Shown here: piece by piece, positions 7,550-31,453 of the stretch
Position numbering within the stretch: position 1 is the stretch's first letter
Layout: every line of letters starts with the position of its first letter
Assembly (NCBI RefSeq): GCF_000143685.1
Contig: NC_014328.1
Coordinates: forward strand, 4,566,066 to 4,630,065
Source: Clostridium ljungdahlii DSM 13528
GTDB lineage: Bacteria > Bacillota > Clostridia > Clostridiales > Clostridiaceae
Reading direction: 5' to 3'
Length of the DNA: 64,000 nt
Position numbers and translations under genes: made by a program
Notes under the pieces: model-generated
What the model was told of the DNA's origin: nothing
Databases searched by the model: none
Seen by the model: only the letters and a program-made list of their open reading frames with translations

Positions 7550-8785
7550 ATGAGTTTAAATGAAACACCTCGCTCAGTAAGAACACATATAGCACTCTTT
7601 GGCAAAAGGAATGCAGGCAAATCAAGTATTATAAACGCCTTAACAGGACAAGATATAGCCATTGTATCAGATGTAAGGGGTACTACTACAGATCCAGTCT
7701 ATAAATCTATGGAGATACTTCCCATAGGCCCCTGTGTAATAATAGATACCGCAGGTCTTGATGATGAGGGCGAGCTCGGCGAACTTAGAAAAGAAAAAAC
7801 ATTAAGTGTTTTAAATAAAACTGACATATCAATAATTGTAATAGATTCAACTGTTGGAATTACAGATTATGACGAGTCTATAATAAATCAAATAAAAAAT
7901 AAAAAAATTCCCCTTATAGGAGTCTTAAACAAAATCGATGCTGCTGATATAAAAGATTTAGATGTAGAACATATGAAAAAAGAACTCAAAATACCAATTG
8001 TAAAAGTATCTGCACTTAAAAGAAAAGGTATACTTGAGTTAAAAAATCAAATAATAGCTGCGCAACCTCAAAGTGAAGATAAATTTAAAGTAATTGGTGA
8101 TTTAATAAACCCTGGAGACTTTGTGGTTCTTGTAACTCCAATAGATAAAGCAGCTCCTAAAGGAAGACTTATTCTCCCTCAGCAGCAAACCATAAGAGAT
8201 ATACTGGAAAGTGATGCTACTGCAGTGGTAACTAAAGAATTCGAACTTAGAGAAACCTTACAAAACCTAGGGAAAAAACCTAAAATAGTAGTTACAGATT
8301 CTCAGGCATTTTTAAAAGTAGCAGCAGATACCCCAAAAGATATATTGATGACTTCCTTCTCCATCCTATTTGCAAGATGCAAAGGAGACCTAGTAGAACT
8401 TATAAAAGGAGTAAAAGCTGTAAAAAAATTAGAAGATGGAGACAAAGTACTTATTGCAGAAGGCTGCACTCACCATAGACAATCTGATGATATAGGTAAA
8501 GTAAAAATTCCTAGATGGATACGACAAATTACCGGTAAAAAAATAGATTTCGAATTTTCATCTGGCGTTTCTTTTACAGAAGAAATAAAGAAATATGCCT
8601 TAGTAGTTCACTGCGGTGCTTGCATGTTAAATAGAGCCGCAATGCTTTATAGAATAAATACTGCAAAAGAGCTTAATGTCCCTATTGTAAACTATGGCAT
8701 ACTTATTGCATATGTCCAAGGTATACTAGATAGAGCTTTAAAACCATTTCCACTAGCTAAAATGGCATGGGATGATGAAAATTGA
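7550..8785 (+). CDS. hydF: [FeFe]-hydrogenase H-cluster maturation GTPase HydF
   Basis: A 411-residue protein that serves as scaffold and carrier for the 2Fe subcluster delivered to [FeFe] hydrogenase, acting with HydE and HydG in the cytosol. The N-terminal GTPase domain has the P-loop GKRNAGKS (18-25), RGTTTD for G2, DTAGLDD for G3 and NKID for G4. The C-terminal cluster-binding region has C306-T-H-H and the H-C-G-A-C motif with C355 and C358, as in the CxH...HCxxC pattern of HydF. GGAGGAG precedes the ATG. It follows aspA by 19 bp and ends at a shared terminator. HydE and HydG are not in the window. Confidence 0.96.
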   Translation: MSLNETPRSVRTHIALFGKRNAGKSSIINALTGQDIAIVSDVRGTTTDPVYKSMEILPIGPCVIIDTAGLDDEGELGELRKEKTLSVLNKTDISIIVIDSTVGITDYDESIINQIKNKKIPLIGVLNKIDAADIKDLDVEHMKKELKIPIVKVSALKRKGILELKNQIIAAQPQSEDKFKVIGDLINPGDFVVLVTPIDKAAPKGRLILPQQQTIRDILESDATAVVTKEFELRETLQNLGKKPKIVVTDSQAFLKVAADTPKDILMTSFSILFARCKGDLVELIKGVKAVKKLEDGDKVLIAEGCTHHRQSDDIGKVKIPRWIRQITGKKIDFEFSSGVSFTEEIKKYALVVHCGACMLNRAAMLYRINTAKELNVPIVNYGILIAYVQGILDRALKPFPLAKMAWDDEN

Positions 8786-16593: not shown

Positions 16594-18687
16594 TTAAACA
16601 ATTTTAAACCTCTGAACTATGCCATCTAAAGTTACTGCCAATGTATTTATTTTCTCTATAGATTCAACTATATTCTCAACAGCTGATTCTTGCTCCTCCA
16701 TTATTGCTGCAACTTCTTCTGTTGATGATGATGACTTTTCTATTATTGCAGATATTTCTTCATTAGACCTAATCAAATGATCTTTGCCTTCATTAACCTC
16801 ATTAATAGTACATTCTAAGTCTTCAATTTGAAGCATAGTATTAGAAATTGATTTACCGATAAATTGAAATGATTTCATGCATAATACCATTGACTTATTC
16901 ACTTCCCTACCAGTAATTTTAGCTTCATCCATATTATCCTTATTTAAAGCTATTTCTTCTTGTATCTCGTTCAATATCTTGCCTATTTTACGAGTTTCAT
17001 CAAGAGAACTATCTGCAAGTTTCTTAATTTCATCTGCAACAACTGCAAACCCCTTACCACTTTCTCCAGCCCTAGACGCCTCAATAGACGCATTTAAAGC
17101 TAAAAGATTTGTTTGCTCCGCAATAGAATTAATTGTAGACATAATTTCACCTATCAAATTTGATTTTTTGCATAACTTGTCTATATTACCGCCTAAATTT
17201 TTTGAGATCTTATCATTTTTGTTTAAATTCTCATTAAGTACTTCAATAGATTCACAACCTTGTGCCTGCATCTTTTTCATTTCTTCTGAATACTTTCCAA
17301 GATTAGAAATACTTAATACGGATTTTTCTATATTACTAGCAAGTAAATTTAGTTTGGAAAAGCTATTTTGTATTTTATCTACTTGTTCTCTAGTTCCTTT
17401 GGCTAGTTCATTAATAGTTTTCGTAATAACAGCAATAGAAGATGTTGTCTGTGATGAAGACACAGCCATACAATCCAAATATTGTACAATTTCTGTGGAA
17501 TGTTGCTTTATCGTTTGGACTGTTTCTAATAGTTCCTTCCTAAGTAGCTCCAAACTGTTTCCCATAATACCTATTTCATTTTTATTAGATATTATAATAT
17601 TTAAATTAGAACAATCATTTTTTGTTAAGTCTAACTTGGCCATTTTAGTAATAAAATCAGTTGCCACTTCTATTGGTTTAGATATTCTTTTTCCCATATA
17701 TAACGCAGCAACTGTTGAAAATATTATTCCTATTATAATAGCTCCTAAAATTGTATATATTGTATTATCTAAACTCTTAAGTACTTCTTTATTAGGAACA
17801 ATAAGCCCTACAATTTGCCCATTATATGCGGTATAATATGCAAATAACATTTTTTGCCCTTCAAAATTTATTTCAATAACCGATGACTTATTATTTTTTA
17901 TTTTACTTATTACACTTTTATACTTTCCGCCATTCATAGTACCTAAATTATATTTAGATGTTATGCTTTTATCAACTATAAAAGTATAGTCGCTACTTAA
18001 CAAAAATGCCCTGCCAGTATCATACACTCTTGTATTTAATATCAAGCTTTTTAGGCTCTCAAAAGACATATCTGCTCCTACTACCCCTACTAGTACATTA
18101 TTAAGATATATAGGTGCAGTATATGATATCACATTTATGTTTCTTAAAGAATCAACATAGGGCTTAGACCATAGTCCTTTCCTTGATTTAATAGGATCAT
18201 AATACCAGGACATCTTACTATCACCCTTTTTATAGTCTGCAAGTGTGTATAAATTTAATTTAATATTACCTTGATTTTTCACATTGTCATATTCATATCC
18301 TATATCATAAGTTTCATGTCCTCCTGTAAAATCTGGATCAAAATTCATATATAAATCTACTATATTTTTATTATTCTCACCTAAGCTTTTCATTAGTAGC
18401 CCTATATTATTTTCATATTCATTCATATAATTAGTATCATTTATCTTTGAAACATCCATACTCTGCAGAATTGCTTTTGACAATTCACTAACTGTGTTTT
18501 CCATTTTGGCAGGTTGTATAGAATACTCATTTCCTTTACTGGATGCTATATTCAACAGCTTGTCAATTGCTTCCGATTTAATTACCTGCGTTGATTTTAT
18601 AACGCTGACACCACCTACTATAATAGCAACTAAAATAAAACAAACTACTATAGTAGAAACTATTTTTGTTATGATTTTATTCTTCAA
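16594..18687 (-). CDS. Methyl-accepting chemotaxis protein with dCache sensor
   Basis: A 697-residue membrane chemoreceptor. TM1 is at about residues 10-30. A long extracytoplasmic region with dCache features ([22 protein letters not shown] near 155 and [16 protein letters not shown] near 200) follows, then TM2 near 312-332, HAMP ([16 protein letters not shown]) and the signalling coiled coil. The highly conserved hairpin tip appears as [35 protein letters not shown]. The start is TTG at 18687, supported by AAGGAGG 11 nt upstream and MKNKI followed by TM1. It is encoded next to agmatine deiminase, so an amine or amino-acid ligand of the Cache domain is a reasonable but unproven guess. The 51-bp hairpin terminates it. 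Confidence 0.93.
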
Positions 18688-18855: not shown

Positions 18856-19953
18856 TTAAACTGCTGGCTGTTGTTGTGTAATGCAGTGAATATTTCCTCC
18901 ACCATATACTACTTCTCGAGTATTAACTCCAACTGCCTTACGTTCTGGGAACATAGCTTGAACCTGTTTCAATGCTAATGCATCATTTTCATCTCCATAC
19001 TGAGGAACAATAACTCCACCATTTACAATTAAGAAATTCATATATGAAGCAATGCAAATGTCTCCGTCTTCTCTTGGCATAGTTCCTTCAATGGCATCTA
19101 TAGCAAAATCACCTGAAATTGTAACTGGTTTTTCTGGTAAACACAATTTGTGAACCTTTAATTTACGTCCCTTTGCATCTGTTGCTTCACATAAAGTTTT
19201 ATATGCTGCCTGTGCCTCTTCGTAGAATGGATTTTTCTTATCGTCTGTATAAATACAAGCTACTTCTCCAGGGCGTATGAAACAAGCTACATCATCAATG
19301 TGTCCATTAGTTTCTTCTGGATCAATACCATCTTTAACCCAAATTACTTTTTCACAATTCAAGTAATCGCAAAGCTTTTTTTCTATTTCTTCTTTACTCA
19401 TGTGAGGGTTACGACCTTCACTTAACAAACACATTTCAGTTGTTATTACTGTACCTTCTCCATCTATATGGATTGAACCTCCTTCTAATACAAAACCTGT
19501 AGTTCTGTATGTATCAATTCCTTCAATTTCACATACCTTACGTGCTACTAAGTCATCTTGGTCCCAAGGGAAATAAAGTCCATCTACAAGGCCACCCCAT
19601 GCATTGAATTCCCAGTCACATCCTCTAATTCCACCCTTATCATTAATTACAAAAGAGGGACCGCAATCACGGATCCAAGAATCATTACTTGCTATTTCAA
19701 CTACTCTAATTTCTGATGGTAATTGCTCACGGCAATTTGCATATTGTTCTTTAGAAACACACATAGTAACTGGTTCAAACTTATTGATAGCTTTTGCTAC
19801 TTCAGCGTATGCTTTCTGTGCAGGTTTTGCTCCATCTCTCCAGTTATCTGGTCTTTCTGGCCATAACATCCAAGTCCTTGTATGTTTTTCAAATTCTCCA
19901 GGCATTCTGTATCCATCCTGTTTTGGTGTTGTTCCTTCAATTCTTTTTGTCAT
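18856..19953 (-). CDS. aguA: Agmatine deiminase
   Basis: A 365-residue enzyme hydrolysing agmatine to N-carbamoylputrescine and ammonia. The guanidine-modifying (pentein) fold motifs are present: MPGEFEKHTRTWMLWPERPDNW at residues 18-39, SNDSWIRDCGPSFVIN near residue 89, GGSIHIDGEGTV near residue 158, NGHIDDVACFIRPG near 217, and the C-terminal GGGNIHCITQQQP with catalytic Cys357, as in characterised agmatine deiminases. The length equals the family norm. GGAGG lies upstream. It follows the antiporter gene by 41 bp on the same strand, so both are read from the sigma-54-type promoter at 21562-21577. The remaining pathway genes (ptcA, arcC) are 8 kb away in the same island. Confidence 0.97.
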   Translation of the reverse strand: MTKRIEGTTPKQDGYRMPGEFEKHTRTWMLWPERPDNWRDGAKPAQKAYAEVAKAINKFEPVTMCVSKEQYANCREQLPSEIRVVEIASNDSWIRDCGPSFVINDKGGIRGCDWEFNAWGGLVDGLYFPWDQDDLVARKVCEIEGIDTYRTTGFVLEGGSIHIDGEGTVITTEMCLLSEGRNPHMSKEEIEKKLCDYLNCEKVIWVKDGIDPEETNGHIDDVACFIRPGEVACIYTDDKKNPFYEEAQAAYKTLCEATDAKGRKLKVHKLCLPEKPVTISGDFAIDAIEGTMPREDGDICIASYMNFLIVNGGVIVPQYGDENDALALKQVQAMFPERKAVGVNTREVVYGGGNIHCITQQQPAV

Positions 19954-19994: not shown

Positions 19995-21374
19995 TTATTG
20001 GTTTTGCTTTACTAGTTCTTCATTTTTAATTTTTTTCACTCTTATAAAAATTTCTTCAACTACATAACCTATAATAGCTCCTATTGTAATTGGCAATTTT
20101 GATCCAATATCGTCTGCAGACAATGGTATAGCCGTCAAGATGATAGCTATTATAGCTATTGTCATTGGAGCATATGCAGCTAGTTTAATAACAAAATTAC
20201 TTCCACCAACCTTAAATGGTCTTTCCTTATCAGAATCAATTTTACGAAGCTTTAAGAAAGCTGGAAACATTGGTATATAGCTTGATAAAAACATAACTAA
20301 ATTTAAGGCAAAAAAGCTCCAAAATAAATCTTGATTAGGTATAAATGGTGCAATTACAACAACAACAGTTGCAACAATACCATTCATTATAGATACTCCT
20401 ATAGGCATACCATTTTTTTTACTTTTTCCAATAAATACTTTTGGCATATTTCCATCTTCTGCCGCATATTGAACTACATTATTAACACCTAATGACCATG
20501 AAATCATATTTCCAAACAATGTAAGCATAAATATAAAAGCCATAACTCCAATAAACATCCCAGTTTTTTGGCCCGTCAATATCTGAAGAGCATCAATCAT
20601 TCCACTGCTTGTACTAATTTGAGATGTAGGTATTGCAGCACTAATACCAAAACTTGAAAATATATAAATTGCAGCTATAACAATACCACCGATAATAATT
20701 GCCTGTGGAATTTGCTTTTTTGGGTTTTCCATGCTATCTGTAAAAGTACATACAACTTCAAATCCCAGCATATTAAATATTATTACTGAAATAAGTGATA
20801 TACTCTTCATATCCAAAGTTGGTAAAAAGGACCTTACTGTAAATGCATTAGCCACACCATGTGTCATAGCGCCATAAATTCCTAGGCCTCCAAGTGTGAG
20901 TGCCAAAAGCATTTTTAGAACTGCTGCTCCATTAAGAATCCATACACTATCACTTACTGGATAAAAACTAATAAATACAACAATCCAAATAAATGCAAGT
21001 TCTATTATAATTGTTGGCAATGTTGGTATTGAAGCCCCTGTAATTATTTGTAAAATTTGAGGTATCATAACGGCCAAAGAAGCCATCCACAGTGGGAAAT
21101 TAAGCCAGTAATACCAAGCTGTCCTAGATGCCATTCTATTTCCAAAAGCTCTCTTTACCCAATCATACATACCTCCTTGTCCCTCATAAGTCGTACCAAG
21201 TTCTACTGCTATTAATCCATAAGGTAATAAAAATGCCACTATAAGTAATATCCACCAAAAAAACTGCTGATTTCCAATTGCAGCTACAGGAGCAGCTGCT
21301 TCTGCTACAAATACTACACATATAACTGTTAAAATGACATCAAACATCCTAAACTTTTTTTTATCACTATCCAT
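19995..21374 (-). CDS. aguD: APC-family amino acid/amine antiporter, probably agmatine:putrescine
   Basis: A 459-residue inner-membrane transporter with about twelve helices. It opens with RMFDVILTVICVVFVAEAAAPVAAIGNQQFFWW and includes PYGLIAVELGTTYEGQGGMYDWVKRAFG, typical of the glutamate:GABA/agmatine antiporter branch of the APC superfamily. In agmatine deiminase loci such a permease exchanges external agmatine for the putrescine made inside. Its place directly before aguA supports this role. AGGAGA precedes the ATG. The transcript from the -24/-12 site at 21562-21577 would have a leader of about 175 nt. The specificity and symbol come from context, not from substrate-binding residues. Confidence 0.82.
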   Translation of the reverse strand: MDSDKKKFRMFDVILTVICVVFVAEAAAPVAAIGNQQFFWWILLIVAFLLPYGLIAVELGTTYEGQGGMYDWVKRAFGNRMASRTAWYYWLNFPLWMASLAVMIPQILQIITGASIPTLPTIIIELAFIWIVVFISFYPVSDSVWILNGAAVLKMLLALTLGGLGIYGAMTHGVANAFTVRSFLPTLDMKSISLISVIIFNMLGFEVVCTFTDSMENPKKQIPQAIIIGGIVIAAIYIFSSFGISAAIPTSQISTSSGMIDALQILTGQKTGMFIGVMAFIFMLTLFGNMISWSLGVNNVVQYAAEDGNMPKVFIGKSKKNGMPIGVSIMNGIVATVVVVIAPFIPNQDLFWSFFALNLVMFLSSYIPMFPAFLKLRKIDSDKERPFKVGGSNFVIKLAAYAPMTIAIIAIILTAIPLSADDIGSKLPITIGAIIGYVVEEIFIRVKKIKNEELVKQNQ

Positions 21375-21561
21375 TTTAAATTTCTCCTTTCCTACTTTAA
21401 TTTTCTCTTCACTTCTTGTTCTTATAAATTGTTTACATATTGTCTTACATAACCTTTATTCATTACACTACATTCCGGAAATAGCATAATCTAGATTATC
21501 TTTAGGTCCTAAATTTTATTTTTCATATTACTACATTTAAATGTTTACAATATTTTTATTA

Positions 21562-21577
21562 AGCAATCTTCGTGCCA
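21562..21577 (-). promoter_or_regulatory. Sigma-54 promoter for the antiporter-aguA pair
   Basis: The minus strand reads TGGCACGAAGATTGCT, an exact match to the TGGCAC-N5-TTGCW consensus with GG and GC ten bases apart. The predicted start site is near 21550, about 175 nt before the antiporter ATG. Two palindromic operator-like sites lie 61 and 126 bp upstream, where enhancer-binding proteins normally bind. The EBP1 terminator lies between. Confidence 0.85.
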
Positions 21578-21579
21578 AT

Positions 21580-21618
21580 AAAAAAAGGCTTGAATCGCGC
21601 CAATTCAAGCCTTTTTTT
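21580..21618 (-). terminator. Terminator of the first EBP gene
   Basis: A perfect 16-bp stem AAAAAAAGGCTTGAAT/ATTCAAGCCTTTTTTT with a 7-nt loop. On the minus strand its T-run abuts the -24 element of the sigma-54 promoter at 21577, insulating that promoter from EBP transcription. Confidence 0.88.
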
Positions 21619-21637
21619 TATACTAATTTAAAAAATC

Positions 21638-21652
21638 ATGTCAAAGTGACAT
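21638..21652. promoter_or_regulatory. Palindromic enhancer-like site (agu proximal)
   Basis: ATGTCA-AAG-TGACAT, a perfect 6+3+6 palindrome 61 bp upstream of the -24 element for the antiporter-aguA pair. It belongs to a family of six similar sites in the island and is inferred to be the binding site of the Fis-type HTH of the two EBPs. Confidence 0.65.
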
Positions 21653-21702
21653 AAAAATATATAAACACCGTATTATATCTAGGTTTCTGGATTTAAAAAT
21701 GC

Positions 21703-21717
21703 ATTTCATATTGAAAT
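21703..21717. promoter_or_regulatory. Palindromic enhancer-like site (agu distal)
   Basis: ATTTCA-TAT-TGAAAT, a perfect 6+3+6 palindrome, 126 bp upstream of the agu -24 element and centred 65 bp from the proximal site (about six helical turns), the same face of the DNA. Confidence 0.6.
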
Positions 21718-21850
21718 ATATGATAAAACTATATACTTTAAATATAAAATGAAACGTAATCTAATTGTATTTTACTGTACAAAAAATTAAAATTAGCATG
21801 TTATTATATTTTTCATACTAATTTTAAATATAATAACATACTAATCTTTA

Positions 21851-23188
21851 TCAAGAAATATTAATCATGTCGGGGGGCTCGAGATGATATTTAGCAATTT
21901 TTCTATAAACTGATGACCTGCTTATTCCAAGAGCCTCTGCAACTCTAATCTTTCCAGCTTCATCCCATCCAAACCAATCTAGTGTTTTTCTAAGCACCTC
22001 CTTCTCCATTTCCTCAATTGGCACAATACCCTCTGGCTTTATTCTTACTTCATTTTCTCCTATAAATTCATTTGGCAAACTTGCCTCAGTTATATACTTG
22101 CTGTTTTCAAAATTCATCGCATATTCAATTACATTTCTAAGTTCCCTTACATTACCCTCCCACTTATGAATATTAAATAATTTTTTAACTTTAGGACTTA
22201 AGCCAATTATATTTTTTTTAAACACCTTACAATACTTTTCAATTAAATAATCACTTATGAGAAAAATATCATCTTTTCTTTCTATCAAGCTGGGAATCTT
22301 AAAGCATATTACATTTAATCTATAATATAGATCCTTTCTGAATTTACCTTCCTCTACCATCTTTTTAAGCTCTATATTTGTTGCCCCTATTATTCTAACG
22401 TTTACACCGACTTCTTTATTTGAACCTATTTTGCATATTTTCCTGTCTTCTATAGCTCTTAATATTTTATTTTGCATAAACTGGCTCATATTTTCTATTT
22501 CATCTAAAAAAATTGTTCCTCCATCAGCTTCTTCAAACTTTCCAACTTTTCCATTGGAGTTTGCACCTGTAAAGGCTCCCTTTTCATAACCAAAGAGTTC
22601 ACTCTCAAGAAGTGAATCAGGTATAGCACCACAGTTAACTACTATAAACTTCTTATTCCTCCTTGGTGAAATATCATGAATAGCTTTTGCAAACAGTTCT
22701 TTTCCCGTACCTGTCTGTCCCAATAAAAGAATGGTAGAATCGTATCTCCCAACTATTTTAACTTTTTCCTTGAGATTTAACATAACATCACTCTCACCAA
22801 TAATTCTAGAAAGATACTTTCTTTCTTTACTATTTCCTGCATTTGCTTTTTTCTCAACAGTGCATAAAATATACTTTATTTTTTTTTCTTCTGTTAGATG
22901 TTTAATTGTATATGTAATACTGTCTTCTAGGTCAGTTAACTTCACTTCTTTATTTTTTTCGTCATCTTTATAAAAATCCTTTTCTATATCATCTATAAAC
23001 TTTTCAATTTTGCTCATATCACTATAAGTATCAAAAACATTTCCGCATTTTTCATTGAAGTAAGCTGCATTTTTAATTAGATCAAAAAATATTACGCCTC
23101 TATCATACATATCCATGATATTAATATACTTATCAAGAATACTGTTATCAAAAGTATTTTTTTTATCATAATATTTTAAAGTAAACAT
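21851..23188 (-). CDS. Sigma-54-dependent transcriptional activator (EBP1)
   Basis: A 445-residue enhancer-binding protein. The start MFTLKYYDKKN is favoured because AAAGGG lies 9 nt upstream; an earlier in-frame ATG overlaps that site. The N-terminal 120 residues resemble a PAS-like sensor (YDRGVIFFDLIKNAAYFNEKC). The AAA+ domain (about 130-360) has Walker A GQTGTGKE, the sigma-54 contact loop GAFTGA, Walker B GGTIFLDEIE and VRIIGATN. A Fis-type HTH (AGKIRVAEALGISRSSVYRKI) ends the protein. It lies between its paralogue and the antiporter gene and has its own sigma-54-type promoter and operator-like sites. Inferred role: activator of agmatine catabolism and of itself. The AAA+ DNA is nearly identical to EBP2. 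Confidence 0.93.
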   Translation of the reverse strand: MFTLKYYDKKNTFDNSILDKYINIMDMYDRGVIFFDLIKNAAYFNEKCGNVFDTYSDMSKIEKFIDDIEKDFYKDDEKNKEVKLTDLEDSITYTIKHLTEEKKIKYILCTVEKKANAGNSKERKYLSRIIGESDVMLNLKEKVKIVGRYDSTILLLGQTGTGKELFAKAIHDISPRRNKKFIVVNCGAIPDSLLESELFGYEKGAFTGANSNGKVGKFEEADGGTIFLDEIENMSQFMQNKILRAIEDRKICKIGSNKEVGVNVRIIGATNIELKKMVEEGKFRKDLYYRLNVICFKIPSLIERKDDIFLISDYLIEKYCKVFKKNIIGLSPKVKKLFNIHKWEGNVRELRNVIEYAMNFENSKYITEASLPNEFIGENEVRIKPEGIVPIEEMEKEVLRKTLDWFGWDEAGKIRVAEALGISRSSVYRKIAKYHLEPPDMINIS

Positions 23189-23245
23189 ATACAACATCCC
23201 TTTTTAACTTAATTTTTAATTTATAAACTTATAATACTTTTTATA

Positions 23246-23261
23246 AGCAACATTTATACCA
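23246..23261 (-). promoter_or_regulatory. Sigma-54-type promoter for EBP1
   Basis: The minus strand reads TGGTATAAATGTTGCT: invariant GG and GC with ten bases between and the full TTGCT -12 block; the -24 block is TGGTAT instead of TGGCAC. The predicted start is near 23234, 46 nt before the EBP1 ATG. Operator-like sites begin 63 bp upstream, matching the spacing at the other two promoters, which suggests autoregulation. Confidence 0.7.
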
Positions 23262-23266
23262 AATAA

Positions 23267-23301
23267 AAAAGCCCTATAAATATATGATTTATAAGGCTTT
23301 T
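23267..23301 (-). terminator. Terminator of the second EBP gene
   Basis: A 15-bp stem with one mismatch, AAAAGCCCTATAAAT/ATTTATAAGGCTTTT, with a T-run on the minus strand. It separates EBP2 from EBP1, so the two genes are not a simple operon. Confidence 0.8.
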
Positions 23302-23323
23302 CATTATATTAAATTATAAATTC

Positions 23324-23351
23324 ATCTCAATTTGACATATCAATTTGAAAT
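23324..23351. promoter_or_regulatory. Two overlapping enhancer-like sites upstream of EBP1
   Basis: ATCTCA-ATT-TGACAT at 23324-23338 and ATATCA-ATT-TGAAAT at 23337-23351 overlap by two bases. Both match the ATnTCA-N3-TGAnAT pattern. They lie 63 and 76 bp upstream of the EBP1 -24 element; the second overlaps the end of the EBP2 coding region. Confidence 0.6.
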
Positions 23352-24677
23352 ATCGTTTACACTATATTCAAGACCATACTTTATAACTTTTCTGTAAACT
23401 GATGATCTGCTTATTCCAAGAGCTTCTGCAGCTTTAATCTTTCCGGCTTCATCCCACCCAAACCAGTCTAATGTTTTTCTAAGTATTTCTTTTTCCATTT
23501 CCTCAATTGATATAATATCTTTTGGCTCTATTTTTACTTCATTTTCTCCTATAAATTCATCTGGCAAACTTGCCTCAGTTATATACTTGCTGTTTTCAAA
23601 ATTCATCGCATATTCAATTACATTTCTAAGTTCCCTTACATTACCCTCCCACTTATGAATATTAAATAACTTTTTAACTTTAGGACTTAAGCCAATTATA
23701 TTTTTTTTAAACACCTTACAATACTTTTCAATTAAATAATCACTTATGAGAAAAATATCATCTTTTCTTTCTATCAAGCTGGGAATCTTAAAGCATATTA
23801 CATTTAATCTATAATATAGATCCTTTCTGAATTTACCTTCCTCTACCATCTTTTTAAGCTCTATATTTGTTGCCCCTATTATTCTAACGTTTACACCGAC
23901 TTCTTTATTTGAACCTATTTTGCATATTTTCCTGTCTTCTATAGCTCTTAATATTTTATTTTGCATAAACTGGCTCATATTTTCTATTTCATCTAAAAAA
24001 ATTGTTCCTCCATCAGCTTCTTCAAACTTTCCAACTTTTCCATTGGAGTTTGCACCTGTAAAGGCTCCCTTTTCATAACCAAAGAGTTCACTCTCAAGAA
24101 GTGAATCAGGTATAGCACCACAGTTAACTACTATAAACTTCTTATTCCTCCTTGGTGAAATATCATGAATAGCTTTTGCAAACAGTTCTTTTCCCGTACC
24201 TGTCTGTCCCAATAAAAGAATGGTAGAATCGTATCTTCCAACTATTTTAACTTTCGCCTTGAGATTTAACATGACATCGCTTTCACCAATGATTTTAGAA
24301 ATATAATTACTTTTTCTGATGTTTCTTTTATTAGATTTCATTTCAATAGTACATAAAACATATTTTACTTTTTTTTCTTCTATTAAATGCTTAATCGTAT
24401 ATGTAATATCAGTTTCTAAACCTATCAAATTTACTTCTTTATTTTCTCTATCATCTTCATAAAAATCTTTTTCTATACCATTTATAAACTTTCCAATTTC
24501 GCTCATACCACTATTAGTATTAAAAATATTTCTGCATTTTTCATTGAAGTAAGCTGTATTTTTGATTAAATCAAAAAATATTACGCCTTTATCATACATA
24601 TTCATAATATTGATATATTTATCAAGAATACTGTTATTGAAAGCATTTTTTTCATCATAATACTTCAAAATGAACAT
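23340..24677 (-). CDS. Sigma-54-dependent transcriptional activator (EBP2), paralogue of EBP1
   Basis: A 445-residue enhancer-binding protein with the same plan as EBP1: PAS-like N-terminus (YDKGVIFFDLIKNTAYFNEKC), AAA+ domain with GQTGTGKE, GAFTGA and FLDEIE, and a C-terminal Fis-type HTH (AGKIKAAEALGISRSSVYRKV). The start MFILKYYDEKN is supported by AGAGTG 7 nt upstream. The N-terminal domain differs from EBP1 at about a third of positions, but from about residue 133 to 400 the two proteins are almost identical, as is their DNA, including silent positions. Different sensor domains with a shared AAA+ core suggest two input signals acting on the same promoters. No sigma-54 promoter was found upstream of this gene. 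Confidence 0.93.
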   Translation of the reverse strand: MFILKYYDEKNAFNNSILDKYINIMNMYDKGVIFFDLIKNTAYFNEKCRNIFNTNSGMSEIGKFINGIEKDFYEDDRENKEVNLIGLETDITYTIKHLIEEKKVKYVLCTIEMKSNKRNIRKSNYISKIIGESDVMLNLKAKVKIVGRYDSTILLLGQTGTGKELFAKAIHDISPRRNKKFIVVNCGAIPDSLLESELFGYEKGAFTGANSNGKVGKFEEADGGTIFLDEIENMSQFMQNKILRAIEDRKICKIGSNKEVGVNVRIIGATNIELKKMVEEGKFRKDLYYRLNVICFKIPSLIERKDDIFLISDYLIEKYCKVFKKNIIGLSPKVKKLFNIHKWEGNVRELRNVIEYAMNFENSKYITEASLPDEFIGENEVKIEPKDIISIEEMEKEILRKTLDWFGWDEAGKIKAAEALGISRSSVYRKVIKYGLEYSVNDISN

Positions 24678-24780
24678 ATACAATCACTCTTTTCTTCTAA
24701 TTAGCTTTATAATATCATAATTTTCTACAAATTTCTACAAACATTAAAATTCACTTTTAATTATACTTTACTTAATCATT

Positions 24781-24796
24781 TGGTATAGTTTATGCT
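24781..24796 (+). promoter_or_regulatory. Candidate sigma-54 promoter for the amidohydrolase gene
   Basis: The plus strand reads TGGTATAGTTTATGCT: GG and GC are ten bases apart, with two departures in the -24 block and ATGCT in place of TTGCT. The predicted start would be about 18 nt before the ATG, very close to the GGAG site. Upstream, only partial operator matches occur (ATATCA at 24712 and ACTTCAAAATGAACA at 24662), so this is weaker than the other three. Confidence 0.4.
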
Positions 24797-24825
24797 TTAT
24801 TATTTAATTTGAAGGAGTGATTTAA

Positions 24826-25695
24826 ATGAAAATAATTGATTCACATTTACATTTTTCAAATATTAATAGTTTTAAAGAAACAGCCTTAAACTTATCAAAC
24901 GTAAACTACTCCAGTACAGGATTAAAGGAGGAATTTCAAAAAAGCCACGTAATCATTGGCATAGGTATGGGATTAACAGAAAAAGAAATTGGAGGATTTC
25001 CAGATTTAAATTCTGATAATCCTATGGATTTAGATCTTGAAGAAAAAATACCCGATAATCTAGTTTACTGTTTAGGAATTAATCCACAAAAATTAAATGA
25101 TGAAGAACTATCAAAAATTGAAAAAAGAATTAAAAATAGTAAAGTAGTAGGATTAAAAATTTATCCGGGATATTATCCTTATTATGTTTGGGACAAAATA
25201 TACGACCCTATATATAAATTAGCTTCATCTTATAAAATACCAGTTGTCATCCATGGCGGTGACCCATATTCAAGCAAAGCCCTTGTAAAATATTCTCATC
25301 CAATACACATAGATGAACTTGCAGTAAGCCATAGAAATATAAATTTTGTTATTGCTCACTTTGGAAACCCCTGGATAATGAGTGCTGCTGAAGTGATATA
25401 TAAAAATTCCAATGTTTACACTGATCTTTCAGGACTTCTAGTAGGCAATCAAAATGATATTGAGGCATTTAAAAATGACCAGTATTTTATCCAGCATATT
25501 CAAAGAGGAATTACATTTATTAAAGTTATTCCAAATTGGTACGAAAAATTTCTATTTGGAACAGACTGGCCGTTGGTACCTATAAAAAATTATGTTGAAC
25601 TTATAAAGTCCCTTTTTGATGAAAAATTTTATGATTATATTTTTTATAAAAATGCTTTAAAAGTATTTCCTAGATTGAATAGCTTTTTTAAGTAA
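24826..25695 (+). CDS. Amidohydrolase-family (PF04909-like) metal-dependent hydrolase
   Basis: A 289-residue TIM-barrel hydrolase of the amidohydrolase-2 type. Metal-site motifs in order are DSHLHF (residues 5-10), GLKIYPGYYPYYV near residue 108, VVIHGGDP near 141, VIAHFGNP near 179 and FGTDWPL near 245. GAAGGAG precedes the ATG. The gene lies between the EBP genes and a Cache protein inside the agmatine island, possibly under a sigma-54 promoter. The substrate is unknown. An amide, guanidino or carbamoyl compound linked to polyamine use is an inference from context only; a decarboxylase of the same superfamily is an alternative. Confidence 0.78.
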   Translation: MKIIDSHLHFSNINSFKETALNLSNVNYSSTGLKEEFQKSHVIIGIGMGLTEKEIGGFPDLNSDNPMDLDLEEKIPDNLVYCLGINPQKLNDEELSKIEKRIKNSKVVGLKIYPGYYPYYVWDKIYDPIYKLASSYKIPVVIHGGDPYSSKALVKYSHPIHIDELAVSHRNINFVIAHFGNPWIMSAAEVIYKNSNVYTDLSGLLVGNQNDIEAFKNDQYFIQHIQRGITFIKVIPNWYEKFLFGTDWPLVPIKNYVELIKSLFDEKFYDYIFYKNALKVFPRLNSFFK

Positions 25696-25725
25696 ATGTT
25701 ATGAGTATTTAACTCATAACATTTA
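25693..25725. terminator. Hairpin overlapping the amidohydrolase stop codon
   Basis: A perfect 14-bp stem TAAATGTTATGAGT/ACTCATAACATTTA. Its first three bases are the TAA stop codon. The following sequence is not a T-run, so it may act as a weak terminator or an mRNA stabiliser. Confidence 0.5.
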
Positions 25726-25832
25726 CCTATTCTATTCTCAATGGGACTATATTCTTATTGAAAATAACTACATTTAACATTATTATAAGAGTATCACAAT
25801 ATTAAATACACTAGAAGATCCGGAGGGATAGA

Positions 25833-27275
25833 ATGAAAAAATCGAAGCTTAAATCTGACAAAGTAATAACATTTTATGAATACATAATAAAAAGATTCTT
25901 ATTTATAATAATTTTATGTGTAGCATTAACATCAGTAATTTATTATGTATATTGTACAAATATAATGATAAATGATACAAAAGATGCCCTAAAAAAAGTT
26001 GCAGTAGCATCTCAGTATATTATAAATGGAGACGAACACGAAAAAATAACTACTGATACCTCACAGCAATATAAAGATATGTGTAATATTCTTACAGATT
26101 TTAGACGTAAAAGTAATGTGTCTGATGTATATACTATGATAAAATCAGATAACTCACATACAAAGTTTGTACTTGCTTCCTATGATGCACAATCAACCTT
26201 TATGAAAGACTATATGTTTAATGATAAAATGAAGTCCGCATACTACAATGGAAAAATTACAGTTTTAGATACTCCTATTACTGACCTTGAGGGCACATTT
26301 TATTCAGCATATGCTCCTCTTTATAATTCCAAGGGAAAAGTAGTAGCTTTAATCGGAGTAGATATATCAGCACAGCAAATAATAAATTTAAAACATAAAA
26401 TATTTATAACATTTATTTTATTGTTTTTACTAACCTGTTTAATTGGAATATTTATTAGTTATTTCTCTGTTAAACCTATAAATAAGGTTATAAAATCATT
26501 GAATGGACTTGTATTAAAAGTTTCAAAGGGTGATTTCTCCTCAGACTTTGATGAATCTATTATTAAAATCAAGGAGATAAAAGATTTTACTCATACTATT
26601 AACACTATGAATAAGAACATAAGCTTTCTAATAAAAATAGTTTCTGAAAATTCCAGAGAAATTGAATTAAAAGCAGAGAAATTGAACTCTTTAGTAGATA
26701 AAGTAAATTTATCTGCTCAAGTAATTACATCAATAGTTGAGGAAATGGTTTATACCTATGAAAACATAAGAAATTTTACTATAGAAACTATAAGAAAAAA
26801 TAAAAATAATTATACAACAAACCTTGAAAAAACTTATACTGGTTTTAAAAACTTAGTTGACAATTTCAATGAAGAAATTAGAAAAGTTACTGACAATTTT
26901 AATAAGCTGAAACTTGTATGCTTAAATAATACAAAAAGCCCTGATACAAAACTTATTAAAAAGTATATGGATAATCTTGATAACGAATTAGAAGAGATAA
27001 ATAGTATGTTTAATCTGTCATTAGATATTTTACATGAACTAAATGCCAATGATATAAGAAATAATAAATTATCGGAAAACGAACTATTTAATTATAACAA
27101 TAAAATAATTGAAAAGTTTGACAAAGTCAACAGTGCTAATGTTTACATATCTGATGGCATAAACGATCAGGCAAAAGCAATTGAGGGAATCCTCGAAGAA
27201 ATAGTAAATTTAAAAGAGATTTCAAATAATTTAAATAAGAACCTTAAAAAGATTAACTACTATAAGAAAAACTAA
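25833..27275 (+). CDS. Cache/HAMP membrane sensor protein lacking an MCP signalling tip
   Basis: A 480-residue protein with TM1 near residues 20-42 and an extracytoplasmic Cache-like domain (VSDVYTMIKSDNSHTKFVLA near 105; FYSAYAPLYNSKGKVVALIGVDIS near 155). TM2 is near 190-212, followed by HAMP (VKPINKVIKSLNGLV). A long coiled coil follows to the end. The C-terminus (DQAKAIEGILEEIVNLKEISNNL) resembles the final methylation helix of chemoreceptors, but the conserved tip ([14 protein letters not shown]) is absent and replaced by Lys/Asn-rich helices. CGGAGGG precedes the ATG. It may be a chemoreceptor-derived sensor with another partner. The site in the agmatine island suggests a related ligand. 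Confidence 0.7.
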   Translation: MKKSKLKSDKVITFYEYIIKRFLFIIILCVALTSVIYYVYCTNIMINDTKDALKKVAVASQYIINGDEHEKITTDTSQQYKDMCNILTDFRRKSNVSDVYTMIKSDNSHTKFVLASYDAQSTFMKDYMFNDKMKSAYYNGKITVLDTPITDLEGTFYSAYAPLYNSKGKVVALIGVDISAQQIINLKHKIFITFILLFLLTCLIGIFISYFSVKPINKVIKSLNGLVLKVSKGDFSSDFDESIIKIKEIKDFTHTINTMNKNISFLIKIVSENSREIELKAEKLNSLVDKVNLSAQVITSIVEEMVYTYENIRNFTIETIRKNKNNYTTNLEKTYTGFKNLVDNFNEEIRKVTDNFNKLKLVCLNNTKSPDTKLIKKYMDNLDNELEEINSMFNLSLDILHELNANDIRNNKLSENELFNYNNKIIEKFDKVNSANVYISDGINDQAKAIEGILEEIVNLKEISNNLNKNLKKINYYKKN

Positions 27276-27296
27276 TAATTATATTTAGGCAGTATT

Positions 27297-27344
27297 AAAA
27301 AGTACCATATAAATTTCCAACCTGGAATTTTATATGGTACTTTT
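27297..27344. terminator. Bidirectional terminator between convergent genes
   Basis: A long stem AGTACCATATAAA/TTTATATGGTACT extended by TTCC/GGAA inside and A/T runs outside, serving the Cache protein gene and arcC. Confidence 0.85.
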
Positions 27345-27372
27345 AATCTAGCAAATGTTTTAATAGATCTTA

Positions 27373-28311
27373 TTACAAAGTAATTACTGTACCACTAAGG
27401 CCTTTCATAGCAAGTGGTGCCTTTTCTAAAGAAGCAATTACTGATTTTCTCCCGGCTTTACTAGTGGCAAACTGAACTGCAGCCTCTACCTTAGGCAGCA
27501 TACTTCCTGGTGCAAAATGGCCTTCACTAGCTAAATTTTTTGCCTCTTCTACGGATATTTCTTTTAGCTCCTTCTGATTTGGCTTTCCATAATTGATAGC
27601 AACACGATCAACTGCTGTTAAAATAAACAGATAATCTGCATCTACAAGTTCTGCCAATTTCGCAGAACCAAAATCTTTATCGACAACTGCTGGAATTCCT
27701 TCATAATCACCATTATCATTTAAGACAACAGGAATACCACCGCCGCCACAAGCAATTACTATAAATTCGTGGTCAAGCAAGTTTAATATAGAATCCTTTT
27801 CTACAATATCAACTGGCTTAGGGGATGCAACCATCTGCCTGTAACCCCTGCCTGCATCTTCTTTCATTACTAATTTAGGGTCTTCTTCCATCATCTTTAA
27901 TGCTTCTTCTTTTGAATAAAATCCTCCAATTGGTTTTGTAGGACATTTAAAAGCATTGTCATTCTTATCTACTAACATTTGTGTTACTACAGTTGCCACA
28001 TGCCATGGCATTCCCTGCTTCTTTAGTTCTTTTTTTAACCCCTTTTGCAAATGATACCCTATATATCCCTGACTCATAGCCGTACACTCTGGTAGCTCAA
28101 ACTTTGCAACTTTATCATTATTAGCTGAAGCAATATCAAGTGCCAGACTAATCATTCCTACTTGAGGGCCGTTGCCATGACTTATAATTATTTCATGCCC
28201 CTGTTTGATTAATCCAATTAAAGATGGAGCTGCATTATCTATCATTTTTTGTTGTTCTATTGGAGTTTTTCCTAAAGCGTTTCCCCCAAGGGCAATTACA
28301 ATTCTTGACAT
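27373..28311 (-). CDS. arcC: Carbamate kinase
   Basis: A 312-residue enzyme that transfers phosphate from carbamoyl phosphate to ADP, giving ATP, ammonia and CO2: the energy-yielding last step of agmatine (or arginine) fermentation. Amino acid kinase-fold signatures are IVIALGGNALGK (residues 4-15), IISHGNGPQVG near residue 43, VVAS-like PKPVDIVE, and FIVIACGGGGIPVV near residue 208. AGGAG lies upstream of the ATG. It lies 47 bp after ptcA on the same strand and shares its sigma-54 promoter. No arcA (arginine deiminase) is present, so agmatine is the likely source of carbamoyl phosphate here. Confidence 0.97.
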   Translation of the reverse strand: MSRIVIALGGNALGKTPIEQQKMIDNAAPSLIGLIKQGHEIIISHGNGPQVGMISLALDIASANNDKVAKFELPECTAMSQGYIGYHLQKGLKKELKKQGMPWHVATVVTQMLVDKNDNAFKCPTKPIGGFYSKEEALKMMEEDPKLVMKEDAGRGYRQMVASPKPVDIVEKDSILNLLDHEFIVIACGGGGIPVVLNDNGDYEGIPAVVDKDFGSAKLAELVDADYLFILTAVDRVAINYGKPNQKELKEISVEEAKNLASEGHFAPGSMLPKVEAAVQFATSKAGRKSVIASLEKAPLAMKGLSGTVITL

Positions 28312-28358
28312 ATTTTTTCTCCTTTATTTGTACAAATTTCTATAGATAATTATTCCTA

Positions 28359-29375
28359 CTAGCCAATAGAATTTAGAACTACTTCCAATTCAGCTCTAGC
28401 CTTCATTTGTGCAACTTTATCTTCTTTTTTTGCATTTTGGTTTAAGAAATATACAAGTAATCCTCTCATAGCTGTCAATCTGTTTTCGCCTTCATCAAAC
28501 ACGATAGAATAATCAGCATCTATTACTTCATCTACTACCTCTTCTCCTCTTGTTGCAGGTAGACAATGCATAAATTTTACATTAGGGCTTGCTTTTGCCA
28601 TCATCTCTTTAGTTACTTGATATTTAGGATAGAATATTGCCATTCTGTCTTCTTTAGAAAGTTCAGCATCATATAAACCATACCAAACATCAGTATAAAC
28701 AAAATCTGCATCCTTTAATGCTTCATCTTCATTATCTGTAATCAATAATGAACCACCAGATACTTTACAATTCTCTTCTCCAATCTTAGTAAGTTCTTTC
28801 TTTAATTGATAACCTTTTGGTCCATATTGAACGAAATGCATTCCTAATTTAGTTGTAATAAACATTAAGGAAGCACATACCTGAGTAGCATCTCCTACAA
28901 ATACAACTTTACAATCTTCTAATTTCTTTCCTTCTGGTAAATGTTCTGTCATAGTACAAATGTCTCCCATTTCCTGGGTTGGATGGTTGTAATCAGACAT
29001 ACCATTAATTACTGGTACTGTAGCATTTTTTGCAAGATCAACTACACTCTTATGTCTGTCTACACGTGCCATAAGAATATCTACTAATCTAGATAAAACA
29101 CGGCTTGTATCCTCGATAGTTTCATGTCCTCCCAATTGAATCTGACCTGGAGCTAAATACTGGGCATGTCCACCAAGTTGTTCCATTGCTGTCTCAAAAG
29201 ATACCCTTGTTCTAGTTGAACTCTGTTGAAAGATCATTCCTAATGTTTTATGTTTAAGTAACTGTGGATAATATCCATTCTTGATACATCTTTTCAACTT
29301 TAAGGATAAGTTAATAATATCCATCAATTCTTCCTTTGTAAAATCATTTGTGTCTATAAAATCTTTTACTGCCAT
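28359..29375 (-). CDS. ptcA: Putrescine carbamoyltransferase
   Basis: A 338-residue transcarbamylase that phosphorolyses N-carbamoylputrescine to putrescine and carbamoyl phosphate. The carbamoyl phosphate site [10 protein letters not shown] is near residue 52, with HPTQEMGDI near 132 and [11 protein letters not shown] near 268. Several stretches mark the putrescine rather than ornithine enzyme: [37 protein letters not shown], and the extended C-terminal helix after [16 protein letters not shown], which supports trimer formation in this subfamily. GGAGG lies upstream of the ATG. The gene is first in the ptcA-arcC pair behind the sigma-54 promoter at 29455-29470, giving a leader of about 70 nt. 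Confidence 0.96.
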
Positions 29376-29454
29376 TTTTTCTTCCTCCTAAAAATTAATG
29401 TTTTGTTATGAATTTTTTATTACTACTTGTAAAAGTTTTCTCACATAACTATTT

Positions 29455-29470
29455 AGCAATATCCATGCCA
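29455..29470 (-). promoter_or_regulatory. Sigma-54 promoter for ptcA-arcC
   Basis: The minus strand reads TGGCATGGATATTGCT, matching TGGCAC-N5-TTGCW at all but the last base of the -24 block, with the invariant GG and GC ten bases apart. The predicted start is near 29443, 68 nt before the ptcA ATG. Operator-like sites lie 64 and 117 bp upstream. Confidence 0.83.
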
Positions 29471-29533
29471 AAAATTAATTATAAGGAAATGGCTATTTTA
29501 CTGAAATACCATACTTGAAATATTAAATAATTT

Positions 29534-29548
29534 ATTTCAATTTGGGAT
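29534..29548. promoter_or_regulatory. Enhancer-like site (ptcA proximal)
   Basis: ATTTCA-ATT-TGGGAT, a diverged member of the island operator family (right half TGGGAT), 64 bp upstream of the ptcA -24 element; the spacing is nearly the same as at the agu and EBP1 promoters. Confidence 0.5.
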
Positions 29549-29586
29549 ATGTCACAAAAATTTACTGTGTTTAAATCAGTTTCTAT

Positions 29587-29601
29587 ATTTCAAAATGACA
29601 T
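29587..29601. promoter_or_regulatory. Enhancer-like site (ptcA distal)
   Basis: ATTTCA-AAA-TGACAT, a close match to the island operator pattern, 117 bp upstream of the ptcA -24 element. Between about 29602 and 29790 the DNA is AT-rich and I see no further feature. Confidence 0.58.
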
Positions 29602-29794
29602 ATACCTTTTATATATTAGAAATTGTACGCAAGTTTATTTGACATAACAAGAAAATCTATATCAAGTAAAAACTTTTTCGTGTTATTAAAAATAATTAAA
29701 ACATATTTAAAGATTTCATAAAGTTAAACTTCTATTATGAATAGCCTCACAAGCTAAAATGCTCCTTGTAAATAATTTCACTATACAAAAATAA

Positions 29795-29838: not shown

Positions 29839-30153
29839 TTAAGGTAAATAAAATATTTTCTTCAAATCTACACTTTTAGGACTGTTATCTTCATTAGTTT
29901 CCATTATATCTTTCATATACTTCCACCACTTTTGACAAATCTCAGTATTTGCCATTTCATTGTATGATTTTTCATCTCTAGCTTCAACATATGAAAACAA
30001 ATATCCTGTTTCCTCATCTAAAAATATAGAATAATTATCATAGCCATGCTTTTTTAATTCTTCTTTCATTTCAAGCCATATTTCATCATGCCTTTTTTTA
30101 TATTCATCATAACAATTCTTATATAACTTCATTTTACAAACTTTTCTAATCAT
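29839..30153 (-). CDS. rhaM: L-rhamnose mutarotase
   Basis: A 104-residue enzyme interconverting alpha and beta anomers of L-rhamnose before isomerisation. The start [10 protein letters not shown] is chosen because GGTGGGGG lies 8 nt upstream and the length then equals the usual 104 residues. The family pattern [20 protein letters not shown] (residues 16-35) contains the active-site His, and the C-terminal half has YSIFLDE, LFSYVEA and the Trp pair [10 protein letters not shown]. It is the last gene of a five-gene minus-strand rhamnose operon and follows the MFS transporter by 34 bp. Confidence 0.93.
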
Positions 30154-30187
30154 ATAACAATCCCCCACCTATAATATTTACATTATA

Positions 30188-31453
30188 CTATATAGACATA
30201 TTCATTTCTTTTTCAATTTGTTTTAAGCTCTTACCAGATGTCTTAGGGGCAAATACTATGCCAACTATCATACTTACTAATAAGAAAGCAGTCATGGTTA
30301 AAGCTAATCCCTGAAATCCCAATGTTGCTAATGTTGGTACGAAGAAACTCCAAAATCCAAGTCCAATACGTACAATTGAGAACATAATTCCCTGTGCTGT
30401 AGATCTAAATCTTGTAGGGAAAAGTTCACTTGACCATAATTGAAAAAATGGCTGCTGTGCCATACCCTGTCCAATGCCCCAAAGTATAACGTATGATAGA
30501 GAAATAACAAAATTTAATTTGAAGAATGCAAACAACGCCATAGAGGTAACGTTTACTATAGCCCCTATAAAAAATGTCCACTTTCTACCTTTGGAACTAT
30601 CGCTAAAACGCATAAATATAGTTACTGTTGTAAATACAGATATTGCAAATTCCAGACATTGAAGTCCCACACTAGTTGCTTGGGATTGGGATCCAAAATT
30701 TTGAAGAATATATGGTAAGAAAAATCCTCCAGTTCCTGCTACCAAATTCCACAATCCATACATAGCTACAAGAAAAATAATTGACTTTAAATTTTGACCT
30801 TTAAATAAGCTGGATACACTAACTTTTTCACTTTTATCTATGTTCTTTAACTTTTTCTGTTCTTCTTCCCATGTCTGAGATTCTGACATATCATGACGCA
30901 TTAACCATGTTATAAATGCTATTACTATAAGATGTAAAAATACTATTCTAGCTCCCCATATACCCAAAGGAGTTAATATAAATGATAAAGCTAATGTGCA
31001 AACAGGTCCAAGTGACCACAAAGCTTGTGCCAAACCTCCATGTTTTCCTCTTGAATCTGCGGGTGCCTGCTCTGCAATTAATGTCCATGATGCTGGTATA
31101 TCTGCTCCAACAGCCAATCCAGCCACTATATATCCCAAAAACAACATCCATGGTTTTACAGCACAAACCAATATAAACATACCTATTATATATACTAAAA
31201 GATCATAAGCATATATCTTTTTTCTTCCAAACTTATCGCAGATTCTTCCTCCTATAAGTGCTCCTACCCCGGCAGATATTGCATTAGAACTTATAGCTCC
31301 TAATAGTCCAACAGTTGTATTACTCAAGTGAAATTGGGCTGCCCAAAGAGTCAATGCACTTGCGCCAGATACAATAGAGCCTGAATCCAAGTAATTAGCC
31401 AAAGCTGCTGATATGGTCCATCTCCAGTGTTTTCTTTTTTCAGAAACTTCCAT
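30188..31453 (-). CDS. MFS transporter, probable L-rhamnose permease
   Basis: A 421-residue major facilitator protein with twelve predicted helices. The loop 2-3 motif GGRICDKFGRKKIYAYD near residue 67 is typical. The TM4 segment VGADIPASWTLIAEQAPADSRGKHGG and the second-half ELFPTRFRSTAQGIMFS resemble sugar-porter and organic-acid symporters. The two classical E. coli RhaT features are absent: RhaT belongs to another family. Its placement between rhaM and rhaD points to rhamnose or rhamnose oligosaccharide uptake; this is inference from context. GGGGAGG lies upstream of the ATG. About 108 bp separate it from rhaD, including a long hairpin. Confidence 0.82.
   Translation of the reverse strand: MEVSEKRKHWRWTISAALANYLDSGSIVSGASALTLWAAQFHLSNTTVGLLGAISSNAISAGVGALIGGRICDKFGRKKIYAYDLLVYIIGMFILVCAVKPWMLFLGYIVAGLAVGADIPASWTLIAEQAPADSRGKHGGLAQALWSLGPVCTLALSFILTPLGIWGARIVFLHLIVIAFITWLMRHDMSESQTWEEEQKKLKNIDKSEKVSVSSLFKGQNLKSIIFLVAMYGLWNLVAGTGGFFLPYILQNFGSQSQATSVGLQCLEFAISVFTTVTIFMRFSDSSKGRKWTFFIGAIVNVTSMALFAFFKLNFVISLSYVILWGIGQGMAQQPFFQLWSSELFPTRFRSTAQGIMFSIVRIGLGFWSFFVPTLATLGFQGLALTMTAFLLVSMIVGIVFAPKTSGKSLKQIEKEMNMSI

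Follow-up and report, generated by a model that had tools for sequence, protein, structure and literature searches.

Gene content of the agmatine cluster

The stretch of DNA analysed here (the window, 64,000 nt of Clostridium ljungdahlii DSM 13528, NC_014328.1) carries a cluster of genes for agmatine catabolism for which control by sigma-54, with activators encoded in the cluster itself, is a well supported prediction. All three enzymes of the agmatine deiminase pathway are specified: agmatine deiminase (aguA), putrescine carbamoyltransferase (ptcA or aguB) and carbamate kinase (arcC or aguC), each identified through curated models (Table 1). The carbamate kinase exceeds the cut-off of NF009007 and falls 1.7 bits short of that of TIGR00746. 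An earlier reading of the DNA made from its letters, the first-pass annotation, had named these genes together with an antiporter and two sigma-54 activators. Its enzymes are borne out by the models, as are the two enhancer-binding proteins (EBPs), EBP1 and EBP2, by their Sigma54_activat domains and Fis-type helix-turn-helix (HTH) motifs. The antiporter could be placed in a permease family only: no NCBIfam antiporter model reaches its cut-off with aguD, which by the models is an amino-acid/amine permease and nothing more specific.

The genome, which was scanned in full (one contig, 4,630,065 bases), contains one sigma-54 gene. A domain scan of the adjacent genes revealed no LuxR-family regulator among open reading frames (ORFs) of at least 100 amino acids between positions 14000 and 36000. 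EBP1 is likely AguQ, a regulator named by Nie, Dong and Yang (2019; PMC6615313) and considered below.

Sigma-54 promoters

Three -24/-12 sites which the first-pass annotation had placed on the minus strand, TGGCACGAAGATTGCT (21562-21577), TGGTATAAATGTTGCT (23246-23261) and TGGCATGGATATTGCT (29455-29470), were recovered at exactly these coordinates. They precede, as had been claimed, the antiporter-aguA pair, EBP1 and ptcA-arcC, respectively, and in all three the distance from GG to GC is ten bases. The pattern TGGYAYN5TTGCW matches four places in the window against 0.30 expected, and none of 100 shuffles reached four; the fourth match, at 8695 (+) within ORF 7550-8785, is probably due to chance. 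With up to two mismatches there are 27 matches against 18.2 expected, a number reached by 3 of 100 shuffles. Since these relaxed matches barely exceed chance, the case for the promoters rests on the exact ones. The stricter TTGGYAYN5TTGCT has 20 matches genome-wide, against none for the reversed pattern, and the agmatine cluster accounts for three of them; the probability that at least three of 20 would fall in these 8.2 kb by chance is 6e-6. The promoters, the candidate activator sites described below and their retention in a closely related strain, C. ljungdahlii ERI-2 (locus L007), together lend sequence support to the sigma-54 control which the first-pass annotation had proposed.

No -24/-12 site was found upstream of EBP2. 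On the plus strand, a weak -24/-12-like site TTGGTATAGTTTATGCT (24780-24796), with two mismatches and GG-N10-GC kept, lies approximately 30 bases before an amidohydrolase gene (24826-25695), and a similar site is present in L007.

Candidate activator sites and hairpins

The window contains six palindromes of the pattern ATNTCANNNTGANAT, where 0.21 would be expected. Five are located in the three promoter-upstream regions, the sixth (47246-47260) being inside an ORF. Each promoter has one candidate at 82, 84 or 85.5 bp from its -12 element, measured from the site centre; the one at 85.5 bp is a loose form, ATATCCCAAATTGAAAT, which fails the strict pattern. A candidate activator-site motif, in a pattern of our own derivation, is common to the upstream regions of all three targets.

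Outside the cluster, two of the strict genomic -24/-12 sites have a match to the ATNTCANNNTGANAT pattern no more than 300 bp upstream. Judged from translations, the first stands before a cbiM-like transporter gene, and the second has ferredoxin/hydrogenase-like genes and a further EBP gene as neighbours. We take both to be targets of other activators and have rejected a wider AguQ regulon; the pattern, as these two matches show, is not peculiar to AguQ.

Two terminator-like hairpins, both stable folds with T runs, are situated between the activator sites and the promoters of aguDA and EBP1. Both folds are kept in L007, with both partners of one pair replaced in each hairpin and, in that of EBP1, one further pair broken. 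A scan with a consensus terminator listed the EBP1 hairpin but not that of aguDA (4 found in all against 3.7 expected). Both probably terminate transcripts of the upstream unit. Conserved hairpins abutting the two promoters were not found in the accessible text of Nie et al. 2019.

Table 1. Genes and predicted regulatory features of the agmatine cluster, with the state of each site in C. ljungdahlii ERI-2 (L007)
Feature	Position	Strand	Evidence or distance	L007
aguA, agmatine deiminase	18856..19953	-	TIGR03380 590.8 bits, cut-off 381.8	
aguD, probable agmatine/putrescine antiporter (permease)	19995..21374	-	PF13520 E 2.4e-46; role from context	
aguDA -24/-12 promoter, TTGGCACGAAGATTGCT	21562..21578	-	exact match	motif kept, two spacer bases differ
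Terminator-like hairpin, ends one base before aguDA -24 element	21580..21618	-	z -6.85, 0/200 shuffles as good	
aguDA activator-site candidate, perfect palindrome ATGTCACTTTGACAT	21638..21652	-	82 bp from -12	same
aguDA activator-site candidate ATTTCAATATGAAAT	21703..21717	-	147 bp from -12	same
EBP1, sigma-54 activator, likely AguQ	21851..23197	-	Sigma54_activat domain, GAFTGA loop, Fis-type HTH	
EBP1 -24/-12 promoter, TTGGTATAAATGTTGCT	23246..23262	-	exact match	identical
Terminator-like hairpin, ends three bases before EBP1 -24 element	23266..23302	-	z -5.21, 0/200 shuffles as good	
EBP1 activator-site candidate ATGTCAAATTGAGAT	23324..23338	-	84 bp from -12	same
EBP1 activator-site candidate ATTTCAAATTGATAT, overlaps EBP2 end	23337..23351	-	97 bp from -12	pattern kept, one base changed
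EBP2, EBP1 paralogue (88% identical)	23340..24683	-	Sigma54_activat domain, GAFTGA, Fis-type HTH	
arcC/aguC, carbamate kinase	27373..28311	-	NF009007 346.2 bits, cut-off 266; TIGR00746 356.6, cut-off 358.25	
ptcA/aguB, putrescine carbamoyltransferase	28359..29375	-	TIGR04384 614.6 bits, cut-off 500	
ptcA-arcC -24/-12 promoter, TTGGCATGGATATTGCT	29455..29471	-	exact match	identical
ptcA looser activator-site candidate ATATCCCAAATTGAAAT	29534..29550	-	85.5 bp from -12	same
ptcA activator-site candidate ATGTCATTTTGAAAT	29587..29601	-	138 bp from -12	same

Conservation in related loci

The ERI-2 locus is 95.5% identical over 11.1 kb, the homology ending at window position 29621, just past the ptcA site, and it keeps all three -24/-12 promoters. 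In 21 kb of L007 the ATNTCANNNTGANAT pattern matches exactly five times, at the five corresponding places; four of these sites are identical and the fifth differs by one base, at a position that is free in the pattern.

Putrescine carbamoyltransferase above the curated cut-off is encoded in 3 of 206 family genomes, that of the window included. We surveyed the best 80 of 88 named-genome stretches encoding a relative of this enzyme (L087-L089, oriented the opposite way, were left out of the counts). In the 450 bases preceding ptcA, only L007 has a -24/-12 site that retains GG and GC and has fewer than three mismatches. This negative is not absolute, since contig ends truncate many of the loci and ptcA is not necessarily first in its operon. 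Seven others (L012, L031, L036, L039, L042, L044 and L063) have a site with three mismatches, and L021 has one with a single mismatch, lacking GG, at about -370. Over the 80 loci, and allowing at most one mismatch, the sigma-54 pattern matches 74 times and the reversed pattern 15 times; several of those matches recur at one place within the ptcA or aguD coding sequence. EBP-like ATPases are encoded in three loci, L007, L030 and L064, those of the latter two being beside other genes. Within this sample the arrangement of agmatine genes under sigma-54 is, as judged from the sequences, restricted to a small group of strains.

The activator pair

The genes for EBP1 and EBP2 differ at 110 of 1317 bases, and 566 consecutive bases over the ATPase core are identical. 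When the differences were placed at random 20,000 times, no such gap arose; this null model ignores selection on the protein. The third-position differences, which per 50 codons number 8, 10, 15, 0, 0, 0, 1, 6 and 10, vanish in the core too. Outside codons 128-342 lie 101 of the 110 differences, and the sensor domains are 70% identical. In L007 the longest identical run of the pair is 158. Over alignment bases 500-1000 the window EBP2 shows 2, 3, 4, 6 and 4 differences per 100 from L007 EBP1, against 2, 1, 8, 9 and 10 from L007 EBP2. Gene conversion has probably taken place within 21851-24683, EBP1 having overwritten the core of EBP2; EBP1 is the probable donor because the window EBP2 core is closer to L007 EBP1 than to L007 EBP2. 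We did not find this conversion in the available text of Nie et al. 2019.

With the first 125 residues of EBP1 as query, in a search that reaches only relatives sharing short exact words, three protein clusters were recovered among 136 candidates: the window's own, that of L007, and one which by eye matches the window EBP2 almost completely. Searched against Pfam up to E 10, the sensor domain gave nothing above cut-off, and the predicted structure of residues 1-128 is poor (mean pLDDT 41.9). By eye it is possibly a degenerate PAS domain; PAS domains are reported in 357 of 387 one-component EBPs (PMC6615313). The best NCBIfam match of both EBPs is the PrdR model, which aligns with their ATPase and HTH part and scores below its cut-off.

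Relation to the AguQ regulon and proposed regulation

The first-pass annotation had held a sigma-54-controlled agmatine regulon with its own activators not to be a described arrangement. It has in fact been described, as a prediction. In a reconstruction of sigma-54 regulons covering 57 Clostridiales species, which include C. ljungdahlii and C. autoethanogenum (Fig. 5 legend), Nie, Dong and Yang (2019) give AguQ in their Table 1 with the targets aguDA, aguBC and aguQT, under agmatine metabolism in Clostridium (PMC6615313). Their electrophoretic mobility shift assay used fragments of six other promoters, the agmatine promoters not being included. The literature searched contained no experimental test of the AguQ regulon, and a search covering few subscription papers gave no other paper using the name.

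We consider that the cluster is the AguQ regulon which Nie et al. 2019 predicted, or a direct counterpart of it, that is, an agmatine deiminase pathway activated by sigma-54 and an EBP, and would put the probability of this at roughly 0.85. This reading draws upon the three exact promoters, the five palindromes, their footprint in L007, the single sigma-54 gene, the domains of the EBPs and the published operons. As in the published regulon, an EBP is predicted to have aguDA, aguBC and its own operon as targets, and the sigma-54 consensus TTGGCATNNNNNTTGCT is shared; an EBP with an AAA+ domain, GAFTGA and a Fis-type HTH is encoded beside its targets in the window; and the split into operons and the self-regulation given in that paper match. 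PrdR, OrdR, LeuR and HiaR (PMC6615313, Table 1) likewise combine amino-acid catabolism with sigma-54 and an EBP mostly encoded nearby, though their substrates are different from that of the agmatine system.

Several points weigh against the identification. Genome-wide the ATNTCANNNTGANAT pattern is found at 25 places against 18 for the reversed control, which taken alone is weak, and since it was derived from these same regions its local enrichment is partly by construction. The L007 footprint comes from a single close relative and is modest evidence. Conservation in orthologous loci, which the first-pass annotation had put forward as a check, proved mostly negative, the arrangement recurring in 1 of 80 loci and there in the closest relative. 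Many sigma-70-like sites exist as well, albeit at chance level (75 found, 71.7 expected). Lastly, the published aguQ is paired with aguT, while here EBP1 is followed by aguD with a promoter of its own. The window also differs in having two EBP paralogues, a pair unmentioned in the passages of PMC6615313 available.

On this reading, the fermentative agmatine deiminase pathway of this type of acetogen would be encoded in two operons, antiporter-aguA and ptcA-arcC, both transcribed by sigma-54 RNA polymerase and activated by EBP1, EBP2 or both, presumably bound to the palindromic upstream sites. The EBP1 gene has the same kinds of promoter and site, and positive feedback would be expected; EBP2, without such a promoter, may supply basal activator. 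The aguDA and EBP1 hairpins would probably end transcripts arriving from upstream, leaving each unit on its own promoter. As inducer the EBPs may sense agmatine or one of its derivatives through their N-terminal domain.

Other explanations may be considered. It is most improbable that the -24/-12 matches are fortuitous and that the EBPs regulate something else: the relaxed matches lie near chance, and one match to the shorter pattern falls, probably by chance, in a coding region, but the strict matches have no counterpart in the reversed control, are three in number here and are kept in L007. We also think it improbable that sigma-54 drives the cluster only in part, with aguDA or ptcA-arcC owing most of its expression to another promoter or to read-through. 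One might point to the sigma-70-like sites within the upstream regions and to the lack of a hairpin directly before the ptcA promoter; such sites are, however, no commoner than expected, two of the three promoters are preceded by hairpins, and the -24/-12 motifs persist in L007. A division of labour between the EBPs, one serving the agmatine operons and the other a different signal or different targets, for example the amidohydrolase gene, seems unlikely to us, even though the sensor and DNA-binding ends have diverged as described and the weak site at 24780-24796 (+), with its similar site in L007, points at that gene. A single site pattern covers all of the strict candidates, and the weak site belongs to a class no commoner than chance.

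Experimental confirmation of this regulation would make a tested regulon of what has been an entry in a table since 2019; it would not reveal a new class of control. The interest that remains is modest and lies with the activator pair, the hairpins and the exchange of regulators described next.

A different regulator at ptcA in C. ragsdalei

In Enterococcus faecalis the aguBDAC genes are controlled by the LuxR-type AguR (PMC3796520). The pathway enzymes are the same as here and the regulator is again encoded beside the genes, but there is one operon with a divergent LuxR-family gene, whereas the window has two operons and sigma-54 activators. A layout of the E. faecalis kind, not seen in the window, is present in C. 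ragsdalei P11 (L008), where a divergent gene with a GerE domain stands before ptcA. A relative of this LuxR-type regulator is found in 37 of the 80 loci, L008 included; 8 of the 37 match its DNA-binding end only, and 29 of the 80 have the longer, full-length match.

The L008 ptcA is 97.4% identical in DNA to that of the window, starting 34 bases before the start codon; the region upstream is unrelated to the window's and has no sigma-54 site. Near ptcA there is no activator-site match, the only one in 21 kb being at base 384. The L008 arcC is nearly identical to the window's up to about base 480 and divergent beyond it. L008:8741-16223 and window 27373-29409 thus share, in different loci, ptcA and the first half of arcC in near-identical form. 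The L008 locus also holds genes for a MatE transporter and an amidohydrolase and a distant aguA (58% protein identity). Because the homology breaks off immediately upstream of the ribosome-binding site and arcC is a mosaic, recombination seems to have exchanged the control region while the enzyme gene itself is common to both loci. This swap was not found in the accessible text of Nie et al. 2019.

A broader view joins these observations, and we offer it tentatively as it is probably not correct in all its parts. In a single small group of acetogens, a near-identical ptcA would be under two unrelated controls, sigma-54 with a lineage-restricted activator pair in the C. ljungdahlii group and a LuxR-type regulator in C. 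ragsdalei, the controls having been exchanged by recombination; gene conversion would hold the ATPase cores of the two activators identical as the ends that sense the signal and read the DNA diverge, and the activators may form mixed oligomers answering two signals. Two sister acetogens that differ in the control of an almost identical ptcA, by sigma-54 in one and by a LuxR-type regulator in the other, would allow a natural comparison of regulatory strategies; in such bacteria, ATP gained by breaking down amines or amino acids can support gas fermentation.

Neighbouring genes

Genes for a rhamnose mutarotase and a major facilitator superfamily (MFS) transporter (29839-31453) adjoin ptcA, and the L007 homology stops short of both. 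The MFS transporter has no close homologue in genomes G004 or G005 (best identity 29%). EBP2 and arcC are separated by a gene for a 480-residue protein (25833-27275, +) without a Pfam or NCBIfam match, which by eye resembles a chemoreceptor-like membrane sensor that lacks the signalling domain. Adjoining aguA is a chemoreceptor gene (16594-18687, -) whose product has a Cache-type sensor domain and may serve to detect agmatine or related amines.

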